Both the position numbers and the translations under genes were made by a program. This document shows, one piece after another, positions 37,511 to 48,540 of a stretch of 64,000 nt of DNA. Source of the DNA: Prochlorococcus sp. MIT 1341 (GTDB taxonomy: Bacteria > Cyanobacteriota > Cyanobacteriia > PCC-6307 > Cyanobiaceae); the NCBI RefSeq assembly GCF_034092415.1, contig NZ_CP139304.1:1286001-1350000 (forward strand), in the 5' to 3' direction. The notes below the pieces were generated by a model that made no database searches, had not been told where the DNA came from, and saw nothing but the letters and a program-made list of their open reading frames with translations. The stretch's first letter is position 1; the number at the start of each line of letters is the position of its first letter.

Positions 37511-40303
37511 TTATGCTGCACTCGTAAGTGAATTTTTAATGGAGATTTGTTTTGCTGTAATTGTCTTCACTCCTTCACCATTTTCGAGTTGATGTAAGAT
37601 TTTTTTTGCATGATTTAAAACTTTTTTGGGTACCCCTGCTAAGCGTGCTGCTTCAATGCCATAGCTTTTGTTGGCTCCTCCAGGAACAACACGATGAAGG
37701 AATAGAAGATCGTTACCAGTTTCTTCAACAAGAACTTGGAAGTTCTCTACATTTTTGATTTGCTTTGCTAAATGATTTAGCTCGTGATAGTGGGTAGCAA
37801 AAATTGTTTTAGAACAAAGAATTTCCGCTAGGAATTGACTTACAGCCCAAGCTATTGATAAACCATCATAAGTGGCAGTTCCTCTTCCTATTTCGTCTAG
37901 CAAAACTAGTGATCTATCAGTTGCGTGATGAAGGATATAGGCTGTTTCAGCCATTTCAACAATGAAAGTTGATTGCCCTGCAGCAAGATCATCAACAGCC
38001 CCTACCCTAGTAAATATTTGGTCAGCAATGCTAATGCGTGCTTTCTTTGCAGGTATCCAACTTCCTATTTGTGCCAACAATTGTATTAACCCTATTTGTC
38101 TAAGATAACAGCTTTTCCCACTCGCATTTGGGCCTGTAAGTATTATTAGTTCTGTTCCTTCACCAAGCCGTAGATCATTTGGAATAAAAGATTCATTGAC
38201 TAATAATTGCTCTACAACTGGATGTCTAGAATCTTCAAGATGCAAGATGCGTTTGTTCTCTGTTTTTAAAGGCTCTAAAATTTCTGGCTGGCAGTATCCA
38301 TTCGTAGCTGCCACTTCTGCCAAACTAACAATTGCATCTAATCCAGCTACAGCTCTAGCCGCATTGCGAATTTCGCTTGTATATTTGCTGACTTTTTCTC
38401 TTACCTGACAAAAGACGTCATACTCACGTTGTGTGCAACGTGCTTTAAGTTGAAAAATCTTTTCTTCTCTCGACTTTAATACTGGTGTTACAAAGCGTTC
38501 CTCATTGGCAAGTGTTTGCCTTCTAATCCAATGTTCAGGAACTGCTTTAGCTTTGGCTTTACTTACTGCTAAAAAATAACCAAATGTCCTGTGATATTGA
38601 AGTCTAAGGTTCGCTATATTGCTATTCTTTCTTTCTATATTTTCTTGACTATTTAGCCATTTTTCTTGGTCATCAATTTGGTTTCTTAATCCATCTAAAA
38701 TTTTATCTACGCCATCATAAATAATACCTCCATCGCTTAGGCTTAATGGTGGATTTTCGATAATACTTTCTCGAATTATAGATGCAACTTCTATTAATTT
38801 AGGATTAACTTTTGCTAAGTCTTTGATGAAATTAGGCCCAATTGCATCTTTCGATGGCAATTCTCTTGAAAGATATGGCAATCTTTCAATGCCATCAGCA
38901 ATAGCAATTAGGTCTCTAGGACTACTTTGACCTGCACTAGAGCGACCTGCTAATCGTTCAAGATCACCCATAGGCTTAAGAATTTTACGAAGCGATTTAC
39001 GAGCGTGTTTTTGTTTGACTAACCAACTAATAATTGCCTGTCGCGCCTTAATTTTCTCGATATTAATCAGTGGATTTTCCAACCATCGTCGGAGACATCT
39101 TGCTCCCATTGCTGTGAGCGTTTGATCAATAGCCCAAAGTAAAGAACCAAAAAATTGGCCCTTCCTTTGTGTTGATGTTATTTCAAGATTTCGTCTGGTT
39201 TGGGCATCTAACTTTAATGACTCATTTTTGAAGGTTATCTTTGGTAGATCAAGATTTGGTACGGACTCTTTGCTTACTTTTAATTCACCATTAATAGGCT
39301 TAGTTGTATTTAGGTAACTTAGTAATCCTCCCGCGGCTCTAAATGCAAGAGGAACCTCTTGTAGACCAAGAAAATCTAGATTCGAAAGGTTATATGTCTC
39401 TTTTAATCTTTTTTCTGCTTCAGGGTAAGTAAAAGGAGTATTTCCAATTTTTGTGACATGTATATCCCGCGGACACCAGGAATGATTCGCTCCTTTTGTG
39501 TGTTCTGATACGAGAATTTCAGCAGCTTCTATCTGTGCTAAAGATTGAAAAAGTTCTGATTCTGATTCCTGTTGAGTTACTAAGAACTCGCCCGTGCTCA
39601 CGTCAGCACAGGCGAATCCCCATACAAATGTTTTAGTTTGTGGCTTTTCTTCAACTATCACTGCTGCCAACCAATTGTTGCGACTTGCAGTTAATAGCTC
39701 TTCTTCCAGAATGGTACCTGGTGTTAGAACTCTTGTAATGCCTCTTTTTAATAAATTTCCTTTAGAAGGTGTCCTTTCTAACTGGTCGCAGAGAGCAATA
39801 CTTTTACCTTTTCGTATCAATTCAGAGCAATATCTTTCAGCGGCATGGTGAGGAATGCCTGCCATGGGAACTCTTCCAATAGATTTGCCTCCGTCTTTTC
39901 CTGTGAGAGTTAGTTCAAGCAGTTGTGAAAGAAGGATTGCATCTTCGAAAAAGCATTCAAAGAAGTCTCCTAACCTATAGAGCAATATTCTTTCTGGATT
40001 AGCTTTTTTCAGTTCTACGTAATGCTTAAGGACCGGTGTTAAGAGCTCGACTTCAACCAAAGTGTGGTGAGACCATGAAGGCTCGAGATTGTCTTGGATA
40101 GGGTTTTTTAAAAGGGTTTTTTTGTCTGTTGAGATGGGGTCCTTCCTTGTCCTTGGTCTTTGTTCAGCATCTAAAACAAGATCTTTTTCTGCAAGATCAG
40201 AAATATCGTTCAAATTGGGTTTTTGGAGGTCTTCCGTAACGAATGATTCTTCAGGAGAATCCCCAAATAGGCTGCCTTGCAGGGCTTTATCATCGCCAGC
40301 CAT
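37511..40303 (-). CDS. mutS: DNA mismatch repair protein MutS
   Basis: Recognises mispairs as a dimer. 930 residues, with an extra 90-residue polar N-terminal extension before the mismatch-binding domain ([15 protein letters not shown], where the usual FYE/FFE mismatch motif is present as FFE). Walker [18 protein letters not shown], Walker [16 protein letters not shown] and the THYHEL signature are intact. Its activity matters for the stability of the short repeats seen elsewhere in the window. ATG 40303 ([13 protein letters not shown]). Confidence 0.97.
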
Positions 40304-41480: not shown

Positions 41481-41726
41481 AATTTTCAGAAATGCCAGGG
41501 CGGCACTTGAAATGCCACTAGAAAAGTTTGGAAGTCTTCCTAGAGGTTTGGTACCTTTCCAATGAAAGGCTCTGTTATGGGTATTCGCTTGCTATTTGAT
41601 CAAAATCCATACCAAAAGTTTTATGCGGTTGGATTTCTCCACTAGCAGCTCCATAAATTCAATTCGCACTGCTCCTGAAGAAATCTCTCCATCTCACTGG
41701 TTTGGAAACATAAATTTAAGTAATTG
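41481..41726. other. Gene-free stretch between the tRNA-Gly terminator and a methyltransferase
   Basis: About 245 bases with short broken frames only (an 18-residue MPLEKFGSLPRGLVPFQ on the plus strand and a 20-residue frame on the minus). It looks like decayed sequence at the edge of an accessory block, but I cannot name its source. Confidence 0.3.
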
Positions 41727-42479
41727 ATGTTGTTAGATTTTGGCCATACAATCGATGGGGTAAACGATAAAGGGCTTTCAAACTTGTTTAACAAACTTAC
41801 AAATATCGCAATTAGGCTGTTTAATTATGCTCGCTCCATAAACTTTATCAGAGATAAATGGTTATATAATGAGTATATCAAAAACAATAAAATTCGTAAG
41901 TTACATATTGGATGTGGTAGAAGCCTAATTAAAGGTTGGCTAAATACTGATTATTATGGCGGTAAAGATATTATGAGATTAGACGCAACTAAGAAATTCC
42001 CTTTTAAAGATAATGAGTTTGATTATATATTTAGTGAGCACATGATAGAACATATATCCTATAATGATGCAACTAAGATGTTGAAAGAGTGCTTTAGAAT
42101 ACTTAAACCAGGCGGTAAAATTAGAATCTCAACCCCTGATATTAGAAAAATAATCACCTTATTCAATCCAAAAACTGAAACCCATAAAAGTTATATTGAA
42201 TGGTCGATTGAGAATTGGTGTTGTAATAAATATCCAAAAGTTTTTAGCCCTGCTTTTGTAGTTAACAATTATGTTCGTGACTGGGGACATCAATTTATAT
42301 ATGACATAGAAACACTTGAATTAAATTTATCGATAGCTGGCTTTGTTGATATTCCCAAAAAGACATTATCTATTTCTGAAAGCTCGGATGTTAATTTAAG
42401 CCTTCTGGAGAATGAAGCAAGAATGCCTCCTGGATTTCTTGAATTTGAGACAATAACTTTAGAGGGACTGAAACCATAA
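41727..42479 (+). CDS. SAM-dependent methyltransferase
   Basis: 250 residues. SAM motif I is IRKLHIGCGRSLIKGWLNTD (GxG loop HIGCG), followed by EHMIEHISY and the LKPGGKIRISTPD strand, which defines the Methyltransf_11 type common in polysaccharide clusters. Very AT-rich. ATG 41727 with a TTG before it in frame. It probably methylates a sugar or nucleotide sugar for the surface polysaccharide; the substrate is unknown. Starts the accessory block right of tRNA-Gly. Confidence 0.8.
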   Translation: MLLDFGHTIDGVNDKGLSNLFNKLTNIAIRLFNYARSINFIRDKWLYNEYIKNNKIRKLHIGCGRSLIKGWLNTDYYGGKDIMRLDATKKFPFKDNEFDYIFSEHMIEHISYNDATKMLKECFRILKPGGKIRISTPDIRKIITLFNPKTETHKSYIEWSIENWCCNKYPKVFSPAFVVNNYVRDWGHQFIYDIETLELNLSIAGFVDIPKKTLSISESSDVNLSLLENEARMPPGFLEFETITLEGLKP

Positions 42480-42592
42480 TTTTTCTCGCCTGAGAGTTTA
42501 GGAATAATTTCTAAAGCCACCTATTTGTTAAATGAAGAAGGCTTTTGCATAAATTTATTAAGTTAAAAACACCAATGATGCCCCCTAAATTA

Positions 42593-43801
42593 TTATTTAG
42601 ACCAGATTGCGAAATTTGATTTTCCTGTGAGGGTTGTTTTAATTAAGTTTTGAATAGAACGAAACTTCAAAGGTCCATCTGGGAAATATCTCCAGTTTAT
42701 AGATAAGTATGAGAGGCTTTTTTTGTTTAAAAGTTCTTCAACTATTTCATATTTTGATGCTTCATCTAGTGTATTTTTAACAAAGGAATAGGCTGTGTTG
42801 GAGCTACTATAGTTAGCATCTAATGTTTTAGAGCAGAAAATTAATGATTCATATAATGTCATTGATAAAATGATAGAAGCATGAGTTTTAGAAAGTCTTG
42901 CATATAGATATTTTGTAAATAGCATTGCAAATATTTTCCGCCATGATTTTGCTAAGTCCTTTTTGTTTGCAAAATTATTTTTATAATTATCAAGATTATT
43001 ATCTAGATAACAATACATTGATATCAATACACCACAAAAATATATAAGTGGCACATTTAATGGATTCATTGTTGTATTGATGTTGCGATAAAATTTCCTC
43101 ATCTTTTCATCCATCGTTTTGCTCTCTATTTCTTTGCCTCCCCCCCCCCAATGTGATTGATCGTAGAAATATAGAAGTTCTGGAGATTGGTATAAAGGCC
43201 CTTGGATAGCAAGATGAACCATCCAAACATAATCAAAACTATATTGCTCATATGGCCAATCAAGTAATTTTTCAAGAGGCCTTATGCTGACTTGATTCTT
43301 ATCGGTTACAGCATAAAAAGACACTCCATATTTACCCTGAGCAAAAATATCAAGAACTCTTTTGTAGGGATCTTTAGTTATATTTTGTGTCAGAATTTTA
43401 CCAGATAATAAAGTGCCTACATTGGTTGAATGATAATTAGGTATACCATGCCATGCAACACAATCTGGGTGGTTATCTATTGAATTTAATACAGATTTAT
43501 TAAGAGCTGGAGAGATATAATCATCATCTCCCAGCCAAAGAAAATATCGATTATTAACCAGCTTATAAAGATTGACATAGTTTTTATACATTCCTAAAGA
43601 AGGTTTGTTCTGAAAATAACGAACTCTAGGGTCTAATTTTTGAGCAAGTTCTCCTAACTCTTGATTAGAGCCATCATCTGAAAGAATTATTTCAGAGACA
43701 ATAGATCCCTGAGTTATGGCACTGGCTATGCAGAGAAGTGTTCTTCTATCATTTTTATAAAGTGGTACTGTTACGCTAATTGAAATGTTTTGATTGTTCA
43801 T
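42593..43801 (-). CDS. Family-2 glycosyltransferase with an internal G10 tract
   Basis: 402 residues. GT-A fold start SISVTVPLYKNDRRTLLCIA, EIILSDDGSN and the DxD-like FLWLGDDDYISPALN. The C-terminal half is mostly helical with weak similarity to known domains. A run of ten C on the plus strand (43140-43149) is ten G in the gene, encoding SHWGGGGKEIE near residue 218. Slippage by one or two bases would frameshift the C-terminal 185 residues. Presumably adds a sugar to a surface glycan. Confidence 0.8.
   Translation of the reverse strand: MNNQNISISVTVPLYKNDRRTLLCIASAITQGSIVSEIILSDDGSNQELGELAQKLDPRVRYFQNKPSLGMYKNYVNLYKLVNNRYFLWLGDDDYISPALNKSVLNSIDNHPDCVAWHGIPNYHSTNVGTLLSGKILTQNITKDPYKRVLDIFAQGKYGVSFYAVTDKNQVSIRPLEKLLDWPYEQYSFDYVWMVHLAIQGPLYQSPELLYFYDQSHWGGGGKEIESKTMDEKMRKFYRNINTTMNPLNVPLIYFCGVLISMYCYLDNNLDNYKNNFANKKDLAKSWRKIFAMLFTKYLYARLSKTHASIILSMTLYESLIFCSKTLDANYSSSNTAYSFVKNTLDEASKYEIVEELLNKKSLSYLSINWRYFPDGPLKFRSIQNLIKTTLTGKSNFAIWSK
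43140..43149. repeat. Ten-base homopolymer (C10 on plus, G10 in the gene)
   Basis: A GC-only homopolymer of ten in AT-rich DNA, within a coding sequence. Such tracts are prone to slipped-strand mispairing and are the basis of phase variation in other bacteria. Confidence 0.97.
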
Positions 43802-43897
43802 GTAATTGAGAAATCATTTGTAATTAATAAGGCAAGCAATTATGCCTGAGGGCTAAATAACTCAGCGATTTACTATAGTTTATTGTGGCCGATTCAT

Positions 43898-43921
43898 ACT
43901 TTAGCTTATTAAAAGCTAAGT
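43898..43921. other. Hairpin between the GNAT and glycosyltransferase genes
   Basis: ACTTTAGCTT and AAGCTAAGT pair with one bulged base around ATTAA. It could terminate transcription of the GNAT gene, but no clear T run follows on the minus strand. Confidence 0.35.
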
Positions 43922-44005
43922 GATTCGATTTTAATACATAGATATTATAAATCAATGGCACCTTCCCTAAGGATAATGTTTTGTAAATAGATATCTACTT
44001 TATTC

Positions 44006-44479
44006 TCACAGAGTTCTTTGTTTAGGTCTCTTTTTTAAAAGCAGACTTTGTTGATTAACTTTTTCGAAACCAAATTGGTTGTAAAATTTAGAACAATTAC
44101 TTGTCATTAGATATATCCTTTCAACGTTTTTAAGTGAATTGGACTTCAAAAGCGCATCTACTATTTTTTTACCTAATCCTTTGCCTTGGAGGTCCTGCGG
44201 AACTATGACGTCCCATAGCACAGCTCGGTAGACGCCATCAGTTGTAGCGCGGCCAAACCCAACAATTCTATTTTTCTCCCACACACTGATTACTACTTGG
44301 CTGCCTGCAAGTAGTCTTTTGATGCTGATTAAGTCACGATTCTCAGCCCAAAAAGCATGGTCATCAAAAAGAATTTTTAATTTTTTTAACCCTCTTATAG
44401 GTTTCAAGCCTGGTCCTAGGCCTAACCATCGGAGGCCTATAGCTCCTCTTCCATGTTTAATCAGTTTTATAGAAGGCAT
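44006..44479 (-). CDS. GNAT-family N-acetyltransferase
   Basis: 157 residues with the acetyl-CoA-binding signature VPQDLQGKGLGKKIVDALL (Q/R-x-x-G-x-G/A type) and the last strand CSKFYNQFGFEKV, both standard GNAT elements. The acceptor is unknown: protein, sugar nucleotide or antibiotic-like amine are all possible. It is divergent from rfbA with 44 bases between the two ATGs, so they share a promoter region. Confidence 0.85.
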   Translation of the reverse strand: MPSIKLIKHGRGAIGLRWLGLGPGLKPIRGLKKLKILFDDHAFWAENRDLISIKRLLAGSQVVISVWEKNRIVGFGRATTDGVYRAVLWDVIVPQDLQGKGLGKKIVDALLKSNSLKNVERIYLMTSNCSKFYNQFGFEKVNQQSLLLKKRPKQRTL

Positions 44480-44523: not shown

Positions 44524-45420
44524 ATGAAGCGTAAGGGGATCATTCTTGCTGGCGGTTATGGCACCAGGCTATATCCGATTACCAAGGCAGTTTGTAAGCA
44601 GCTGTTACCTGTCTATGACAAGCCTATGGTGTTTTATCCATTAACAACCTTAATGCTTACAGGTATTCGAGAAGTTCTTGTCATTACAACTCCTCAGGAT
44701 CTAGCGAGTTTTCAAAATTTGCTAGGTGATGGCAGTGACTTGGGTATGGAGATTAATTATCAGCTGCAAATGAGTCCAGATGGTTTGGCACAAGCATTTT
44801 TGATTGGTGAGAAATTTCTCAATAATTCTCCAGTCACATTAATACTCGGCGATAATATCTTTCATGGTAATGATTTAGTCCCTCAGTTGATTGCCAGTCG
44901 TTCTAAAGACGTAGGTGCGACATTATTTGCCTATCCAGTGAGTGACCCAGAAAGATATGGTGTTGTTGAGTTTTCTCAAGATGGTCAAGTCTTAAATATT
45001 GAGGAGAAACCAAAAAATCCTAAAAGTACTTATGCAGTTACAGGATTATACTTTTACGATCATACTGTTGTTGAACGCGCCAAATCTGTTCAACCTTCTT
45101 CTAGAGGAGAATTAGAAATAACCGATTTGAATCTTCAGTATTTACAAGATGGTTTGTTGCATGTTGAATTAATGGGTCGCGGCATGGCCTGGCTTGATAC
45201 TGGCACTTGCGATTCTTTGCAGGAGGCAGCAGCTTATATACGCACTTTGGAACACAGACAGGCGTTAAAAGTTGGTTGTCCAGAAGAAGTGGCGTGGCGA
45301 TTAGGATGGATTACAGCTGAGGATTTAGCTGAATTGGCACATCCTTTGCGGAAGAGTGGTTATGGGGATTATTTGCTTGATCTTCTTGAAAAACCACAGC
45401 CAAATATTGCAATGTCATAA
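44524..45420 (+). CDS. rfbA: Glucose-1-phosphate thymidylyltransferase
   Basis: Makes dTDP-glucose from dTTP and glucose-1-phosphate, the first step toward dTDP-rhamnose and other 6-deoxysugars. N-terminal [20 protein letters not shown] nucleotidyltransferase loop, GDNIFHG metal site, [19 protein letters not shown]. 298 residues, ATG start. rfbB follows after about 120 bases; rfbC and rfbD are not between or beside them. Confidence 0.97.
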
Positions 45421-45541: not shown

Positions 45542-46651
45542 ATGACTATTTATTCTCCAGAAATATTTCAAATCAATGAGCTTCTTTCTGATAGGCAGCG
45601 AATTCTTGTAACGGGTGGAGCTGGCTTTATAGGAGGTTGCTTGATAAGGCGGTTATTAACAGGAAGCAATGTAAAAGTGTTTAATTTAGATAAGTGTGGT
45701 TATGCTAGTAATTTGAAAAGTATTCAGCAGGTTGGTGAATCATCACAACGTCATGAATTGATCAATGTAGATTTATCTGATGCAGGCTCGATTGATGAAG
45801 CGATTATTTATGCTAATCCAGATATAGTTTTTCATCTTGCGGCTGAGAGTCATGTTGATCGATCAATTGATGGACCAAAAACCTTTCTAGATAGCAATGT
45901 AATAGGCACCTTTAATCTTTTACAAGCTATTCGTAAATTTTGGGAGTCTTTACCTCCTAAAAGAAAGGGCTCTTTTCGGCTTATTCACATAAGTACGGAT
46001 GAGGTTTTTGGATCTTTAGGTAATACAGGATATTTTTCTGAAGATACACCATATAACCCCAGCTCTCCTTATGCAGCTACTAAGGCGGCTAGCGATCACC
46101 TCGTTAGAGCTTGGAATCTTACTTATGGTTTACCCGTGGTTGTAACAAATTGCTCAAATAATTATGGCCCTTGGCAATTCCCAGAGAAGCTAATCCCATT
46201 GGTCATACTTAAGGCTTTAAAGGGAAAACAAATTCCCCTTTATGGAGATGGTATGAATACCAGAGATTGGCTTTATGTTGAGGATCACGTCGACGCGCTA
46301 TTGTTATCAGCAATCAAAGGTGAGATAGGTAAAAGTTATTGTGTGGGGGGTAATGGTGAATGTACAAATAAGCAAATCGTTTATTCAATTTGTTCACTCC
46401 TCGATGCAAAAATACCTAATTCTGCTCCTCATAGTAGTTTGATTAGTTTTGTTCAAGATAGACCAGGCCATGATTTTCGATATTCAATTGATTCAAAAAA
46501 AATACAGGAAGAATTAGATTGGAGACCAAGGCATAGCTTAGAAGAAGGACTCAAAAATACAGTAGAGTGGTATTGTAATAATCTTAGTTGGTGTAATGAT
46601 GTGGTAAATAAGTCTGGTTACGATGGACAACGAATGGGACATATAAATTAG
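45542..46651 (+). CDS. rfbB: dTDP-glucose 4,6-dehydratase
   Basis: Converts dTDP-glucose to dTDP-4-keto-6-deoxyglucose with bound NAD+. Extended SDR: VTGGAGFIGGCLI loop, HLAAESHVDRSI, HISTDEVFG (Thr-Asp-Glu catalytic set) and PSSPYAATKAASDH with the Tyr-x-x-x-Lys. 369 residues. Its product is the branch point for rhamnose, fucosamine and other sugars of the surface glycan; which sugar is made here depends on enzymes outside the window. Confidence 0.96.
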   Translation: MTIYSPEIFQINELLSDRQRILVTGGAGFIGGCLIRRLLTGSNVKVFNLDKCGYASNLKSIQQVGESSQRHELINVDLSDAGSIDEAIIYANPDIVFHLAAESHVDRSIDGPKTFLDSNVIGTFNLLQAIRKFWESLPPKRKGSFRLIHISTDEVFGSLGNTGYFSEDTPYNPSSPYAATKAASDHLVRAWNLTYGLPVVVTNCSNNYGPWQFPEKLIPLVILKALKGKQIPLYGDGMNTRDWLYVEDHVDALLLSAIKGEIGKSYCVGGNGECTNKQIVYSICSLLDAKIPNSAPHSSLISFVQDRPGHDFRYSIDSKKIQEELDWRPRHSLEEGLKNTVEWYCNNLSWCNDVVNKSGYDGQRMGHIN

Positions 46652-46710: not shown

Positions 46711-48540
46711 TCATGATTTAGATTCTGTTTGCTCTAAGTATGTGAGATTTTTGAAGCTTGTTGAGGTTTTGCGTAGTTCTTCAAATCGACCGGAATCCTT
46801 TATTCTTCCTTCCTCGAATTCATATATAAAGTCAGATCTAATAACAGTAGAAAGGCGATGAGCAATAATGACTAAAGTACATCTGCGTCCAATAACTTCT
46901 ATGGCATCCATTACTTCAGCCTCAGTTTTATTATCTAATGCACTTGTTGCTTCATCCAAGACTAATAATTTTGAATTGCGATAAAAGGCTCTTGCTAATG
47001 CAAGCCTTTGTCTTTGTCCCCCTGATAGCCGAATACCATTTTCACCTATATGCGTAAATAGCCCTAACGGTAGTTCGGAGACTAAATCTGCTAATTGAGC
47101 AGCTTGCAAAGCATCCCAGATTTGATCTTTGTCCACCTTGCTTGGGTCTTTTCCATAGGCAATATTCTCTAGAACATTGCTATTCAGCAGGGTTATAGAT
47201 TGAGGAACATAAGCACAATTTGCCTGCCAAGCAGGTATATCTGCTTCAGAAACATCAATCCCATCTAGTTGTAATGAACCTTTGGTTGGTCGAAGTAAGC
47301 AAAGAAGTTGATTGGCAGCAGTAGTTTTGCCGCTACCGGTTGCACCAACAAAGGCTACTCTTCCTCCAACAGGGATTGTTATATTTATGTCTTTGAGAAC
47401 TAGTTGATCTCTGGATGGGTATTTATAATCAATATGGTTTAACTTTATATTGTATTTAGGTGCTATTCCTCTTGGAGAAGGTACACCTAGTGACCCTAAA
47501 GTAAGCCTGTTGGTTTTTAATTCAATCAGTTTAAGTGTCTCTTCAAGGTCAGCCATTGCTGATCGAATCGATGTGAAAGCTCGAAAACAATCCTGAAGCG
47601 GAGGTGTTAGCTTTAAAGAGGAAACGGCAATAGTAGCTAGAAAAGGTATTATCTTTAATAAGTTAGATGGATCAGAATTGCTCAATATTGGGAGCATTCC
47701 AATGCTAAAGATTAGGGTTATCCCAAGAGGCTCTAAGAGAGCTCTTGGCATTTCTGGTAATGCTTCACCTTTCCAAATAAAAGGAATACTAGAACGCCAA
47801 GCAGATGCATATCTTTTCTGAAAGAATTCTTCTGAACCTGTTAATTGCACATCAAGAATGGTTCTTAGAGAATCATTCAATACGTTATTTGTCTGCTTGA
47901 GAAGAGTTACGCGTTGTCTCGATGAAAAACGTATAAAAGGAGTAATACTTAGAGTTATAGCCACATAGCTGAGGATTAAACATCCTATTAACACAAAGGC
48001 TACGAGTTTCTCGACAAATATGATTGCTGTAAAAAGAAAACTTATTAGAAATAAACCGCTTATTAATTGCAATAAGGGTAGTATTAACCTTTCCGATACT
48101 CGTTCTATATTTACTAATATAGTTGCCGACAACTCGCTATTATCTTTTCCTAGAAAATATTCATACCTCTGACCTAGTATTTTCCTTTGGGCCATTTCTG
48201 AGAGGTCTCGCCAAATACCTGATTTCAAACGAAATTGCCAAGATCTTAGTAAAAGCTTTGTGAATGAAGAGAACCAACTCAATCCTATGAATGCAATGAC
48301 AAGTCCTAAGGCTTTGATGCGTGGGTCGGCTGGAATAAGGTCTGTAAATGGTAAAGATGGACGATTTGGAGACCCGACAAATACGGTAAATAGTCTAGAA
48401 ACGGCTGCTATAACAAGTACGTCTGCAAGGCCTGCGATAAAGGCTACTGGGATCAAGCCTACGAGAGCACGCTTACGCTTAGCCGGTAGTGCCTTCATTA
48501 GACGCACCAGGTTGTTTAGTGTCTGGCTCGCCTTCATCAT
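46711..48540 (-). CDS. ABC exporter, fused membrane and ATPase domains
   Basis: 609 residues. Six membrane helices in the first 330 residues (type I exporter), then the ATPase: Walker A VAFVGATGSGKTTAANQ near 398, signature RLSGGQRQRLALARAF, Walker B KLLVLDEATSALD, and IIAHRLST. The build is that of MsbA-like half transporters that flip lipids or lipid-linked oligosaccharides. Next to rfbA/rfbB, it may export a surface glycan or its lipid carrier; a lipid or peptide exporter is the alternative. Two adjacent ATGs. Confidence 0.9.
   Translation of the reverse strand: MMKASQTLNNLVRLMKALPAKRKRALVGLIPVAFIAGLADVLVIAAVSRLFTVFVGSPNRPSLPFTDLIPADPRIKALGLVIAFIGLSWFSSFTKLLLRSWQFRLKSGIWRDLSEMAQRKILGQRYEYFLGKDNSELSATILVNIERVSERLILPLLQLISGLFLISFLFTAIIFVEKLVAFVLIGCLILSYVAITLSITPFIRFSSRQRVTLLKQTNNVLNDSLRTILDVQLTGSEEFFQKRYASAWRSSIPFIWKGEALPEMPRALLEPLGITLIFSIGMLPILSNSDPSNLLKIIPFLATIAVSSLKLTPPLQDCFRAFTSIRSAMADLEETLKLIELKTNRLTLGSLGVPSPRGIAPKYNIKLNHIDYKYPSRDQLVLKDINITIPVGGRVAFVGATGSGKTTAANQLLCLLRPTKGSLQLDGIDVSEADIPAWQANCAYVPQSITLLNSNVLENIAYGKDPSKVDKDQIWDALQAAQLADLVSELPLGLFTHIGENGIRLSGGQRQRLALARAFYRNSKLLVLDEATSALDNKTEAEVMDAIEVIGRRCTLVIIAHRLSTVIRSDFIYEFEEGRIKDSGRFEELRKTSTSFKNLTYLEQTESKS

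Follow-up and report, generated by a model that had tools for sequence, protein, structure and literature searches.

Is a run of ten guanines inside a glycosyltransferase gene of Prochlorococcus a switch that turns a surface glycan on and off, as a sequence-only reading had proposed, or a homopolymer belonging to the background of its lineage? The run lies in a window (the whole 64-kb stretch of DNA that we analysed) located in the closed chromosome, 1,937,096 bp long, of Prochlorococcus sp. MIT1341, a member of the LLVII grade with 40.1% GC (PMC11559063). Its relatives within the genus include the single-cell genomes AG-363-P08 and AG-363-P19.

The tract, its gene and its neighborhood

The exact position of the tract, ten C on the plus strand and ten G in the sense of the gene, and its in-frame location in a GT2-family gene were both confirmed from the letters and from the Pfam match (Table 1). 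No other G/C run of the window is longer than 7. Read on the minus strand, the codons of the tract are TGG GGG GGG GGA GGC (W218-G219-G220-G221-G222); the four glycines announced near residue 218 are therefore present, and the tract directly follows a conserved tryptophan. The protein resembles the GT2 family by its Glycos_transf_2 domain (PF00535) at residues 9-127 (E 4.7e-14, 53.1 bits against a curated cut-off of 23.3), whereas the rest of it, including the part after the tract, matched no Pfam or NCBIfam model. Among known structures, those of chondroitin synthase and GalT1 matched its sequence weakly. The AlphaFold model (mean pLDDT 49.8) was set aside.

With a tract of ten, as read, the gene is open and encodes the full-length product. 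When other lengths were simulated, 7, 10 and 13 gave an open frame of 401-403 aa, i.e., lengths of the form 3n+1 keep the frame, while 8, 9, 11 and 12 led to a stop at 224-231 aa and lengths 6, 8, 9, 11, 12, 14 and 15, taken together, to a stop at 223-232 aa. The expected frameshift of the C-terminal part by one or two bases was thus recovered as a truncation soon after the tract, but about 180 residues lie downstream of it rather than the 185 initially proposed. The tract has two properties of contingency loci, a G/C run of at least 7-8 bases within an ORF and the loss of the full-length product upon a change of one or two bases.

Table 1. Features of the window around the G10 tract, with positions in the window.
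Feature	Position	Strand	Remarks
mutS1	37511..40303	-	intact
SAM-dependent methyltransferase (Methyltransf_11)	41724..42479	+	converges with the GT2 gene; shared low-GC stretch
GT2-family glycosyltransferase gene	42593..43801	-	402 aa; Pfam PF00535 (Glycos_transf_2)
G10 homopolymer (C10 on the + strand)	43140..43149	-	gene nt 653-662; most of W218-GGGG
GNAT acetyltransferase	44006..44479	-	upstream of the GT2 gene
rfbA/rmlA, glucose-1-phosphate thymidylyltransferase	44524..45420	+	TIGR01207
rfbB, dTDP-glucose 4,6-dehydratase	45542..46651	+	TIGR01181
ABC transporter	46711..48540	-	membrane and ATPase domains

The neighboring genes (methyltransferase, GNAT, rfbA, rfbB and ABC transporter) would fit a role of the GT2 gene in a cell-surface polysaccharide. 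The GC content of the GT stretch (28-34%) is below that of its surroundings. Most of the interval 41724-44479, in which the methyltransferase, glycosyltransferase and acetyltransferase genes are located between ribH and rfbA, has this low GC, and it is possibly a small acquired polysaccharide islet.

Homologues and the reliability of the tract length

Searches of several hundred family genomes and of GTDB contigs gave only three homologues of the GT2 protein, with 39-44% identity. A single-protein search of genome contigs and viral contigs recovered no relatives; a search with the four-sequence alignment recovered the same three homologues from genome contigs and none from viral contigs, and a search with the DNA around the tract matched its own genome only. 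Gene neighborhood was not shared with the homologues, since within 4 kb no other gene on their side matched a gene of the window. In the three homologous genes, no G/C run reaches 6 bases. The alignment places the G10 right after an invariant YFYD..W motif, where gaps are frequent, ahead of a conserved VPLIY region. Downstream of the G10, the frame can be aligned with each of the three homologues, indicating that ten is an open length. At 39-44% identity these proteins are too distant to tell if the run persists in close relatives, which we counted against a background origin.

Homopolymer runs of about ten bases can make a polymerase or a ribosome slip, and the tract might then give rise to two forms of the protein, through transcriptional slippage or programmed frameshifting. 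However, the alternative frames stop about 2-9 codons past the tract and the homologues have no such site, making this explanation very improbable.

Another explanation concerns the assembly itself, which was obtained from PacBio RS II reads with HGAP and Quiver polishing, from a xenic culture that had not been purified by dilution (PMC11559063). In the same genome, a C run of 9 bases marks the exact point at which infB breaks into two frames (near 1496595; L242:1765-5180). IF2_N lies in a frame of 453 aa and the remaining part of IF-2 (TIGR00487, E 4e-244) in another one, and a change of one base in the run joins the two into 1139 aa. Since infB is presumably an essential gene, the consensus at this run is probably off by one base. 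The combination of a PacBio-only assembly with this out-of-frame run makes tract lengths uncertain by about one base, and an error of this kind may also affect the GT tract, though its frame is open as read. Its true length would then be 9 or 11, with the gene off in the strain, or mixed in the uncloned culture. A length drawn at random would nevertheless keep the frame in only a third of cases, and here the frame is open at ten with a downstream half that aligns with all three homologues; we thus consider such a consensus error quite unlikely.

G/C runs in the genome and in the clade

We derived the numbers of runs expected by chance from Markov models (order 0-4) trained on the window, and those present in the genome from pattern searches. 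MIT1341 contains 20 G/C runs of at least 8 bases, 8 of at least 9 and 2 of at least 10 (12 of exactly 8, 6 of 9 and 2 of 10), for 5.5-10.5, 1-2.2 and 0.2-0.46 expected per genome, respectively, and thus exceeds chance two- to several-fold. For runs of 10 or more, the count is somewhat above expectation, and this too was counted against a background origin. For this length class the models give about 0.01 run per window and a probability of about 17-37% for at least one per genome, so that the G10 is striking within one window but only mildly unusual genome-wide.

The other G10 of the genome is in no sizeable ORF. Runs of 8-9 were found in ORFs for a CbiX-like protein, cobyric acid synthase, a ClpP-like protease, petB, infB, a urtE-like ABC ATPase, an MlaE permease and a lipoyl-ligase-like protein (names read from the sequences, except for IF-2 and MlaE, which were identified by domain scan). 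The genome has 16 GT2 loci among about 2,037 CDS (PMC11559063), under 1%, and a run of at least 8 bases was present at only one of the 16.

The clade dataset, 87 HL and 19 other picocyanobacterial genomes, contained 197 G/C runs of 9 or more, of which five, in the window's own genome, were analysed separately and the other 192 together. Among these 192 runs, 98 were located within ORFs of 90 aa or longer, nine were so only when their length was shifted by one, 47 were in none and 38 were in the spacer between rpsK and rpoA. Their numbers fell steadily with length (119, 51, 15 and 4 for lengths 9, 10, 11 and 12). According to Pfam, the coding runs of 10 or more were in MutS2, phosphoglycerate kinase, HisRS, a TilS-type PP-loop protein, P5C reductase, CbiQ, AIR-synthase-type and TrpD-type (Glycos_transf_3) proteins and similar ones; none of the 27 such runs other than the G10 was in a GT2 gene. 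The 70 coding runs of 9 include, by sequence, truB, ubiE, atpA, carB, polA and clpC, and we recovered no GT2 either in the families matched by more than one member, a tabulation that may hide families matched once, or in the members scanned singly. With about 0.8 GT2 expected among the 98 coding runs and one seen, there was no excess of glycosyltransferases among runs of 9 or more in this genome or in the clade. The runs were not concentrated in surface genes; they occurred in housekeeping genes and in the ribosomal-operon spacer. Outside this spacer, HL genomes had 78 runs for 22-77 expected under models of order 1-5.

The spacer runs form a group of their own. In the 87 HL genomes, 38 of the 116 G/C runs of at least 9 bases belong to one poly-C tract (C9-C16), which an A-rich run usually follows (loci L037, L043, L057, L125, L149 and 33 other HL loci). 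This tract is found a short distance upstream of the probable GTG start codon of rpoA, and its length and make-up differ between species. A recurring ORF with T/G runs in HL genomes, considered as a candidate frameshifted gene, turned out to be this same spacer and was rejected.

These distributions bear on whether the G10 belongs to a contingency locus, in which the run would slip at high frequency and turn the GT2 gene on and off, altering a surface glycan used by cyanophages. The tract is in frame in a glycosyltransferase gene near rfbA and rfbB, a gene class in which phase variation is usual, with the G on the sense strand and the gene in the open state, and all lengths except 3n+1 truncate the product early. 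It resembles in this respect the poly-G phasome genes of Campylobacter, which have in-frame sense-strand runs of 9-10 whose changes in length truncate the protein (PMC6321876). In Campylobacter, however, poly-G runs are many per genome and peak at 9 (53%) and 10 (26%), 7-8 being rarer (PMC6321876), whereas the runs of the picocyanobacteria decrease steadily with length and occur in housekeeping genes without surface bias. Another precedent could be the loss of one base from an A-run upstream of mutT-phrB, which recurred in three UV-resistant variants of MED4 (PMC2955971). It is a case of selection acting on a homopolymer indel in Prochlorococcus, but that run is intergenic, with a putative regulatory effect, was selected by UV and involves no glycan gene. 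Our searches of the literature on phase variation in Prochlorococcus or Synechococcus yielded no study of poly-G switches. Considering also the lack of run excess in surface genes, the homologues without a run and the single coincidence among 16 GT2 loci, we regard a contingency locus as unlikely. The initial proposal of a phase-variable glycan gene therefore stands for the truncating, in-frame run beside dTDP-sugar genes, but finds no echo in the clade-wide distribution or in the homologues.

Mismatch repair and the significance of the run

The remaining argument for a switch concerns repair. The MutL domain PF08676 was not found in the genome of MIT1341, nor PF01119 in 11 picocyanobacterial genomes including this one, while the Synechococcus elongatus and E. 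coli controls were positive. MED4 was reported to be without mutL (PMC2921402), which is also absent from several P. marinus strains (PMC5101192). Mismatch repair may thus be incomplete in the clade despite the intact mutS1, and slippage loops may be poorly repaired, which makes slippage at the G10 plausible. However, poor repair would raise the mutability of all such runs and not that of the G10 of the GT2 gene in particular. In another picocyanobacterium (G055, L193:697-1557), mutS itself is seemingly frameshifted at a G11 run, which could point either to an error of assembly or to a mutator.

Similar runs being equally frequent in ordinary housekeeping genes of its relatives, the G10 looks like background and not like a surface switch, and there is no sign that it was selected or kept as one. 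We thus consider it probable that the G10 is a neutral background homopolymer, probably slippage-prone, in a currently open GT2 gene. The run would have arisen through chance and slippage in a lineage without MutL, in a poorly constrained, tolerant linker of a working glycosyltransferase. Its gains and losses of bases would probably occur at a rate somewhat above average, and any change other than by a multiple of three would truncate the protein at about 223-232 aa, presumably with loss of function, so that loss-of-function mutations and reversions at this gene would be made a little easier.

A lone in-frame G10 in a glycan gene is therefore weak evidence for phase variation unless it is set against the background of runs in the genome and the clade. 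That a free-living picocyanobacterium without MutL toggles its sensitivity to cyanophages by a poly-G switch in a surface glycosyltransferase appears rather unlikely; if true, such switching would provide Prochlorococcus with a fast, reversible route to phage resistance.
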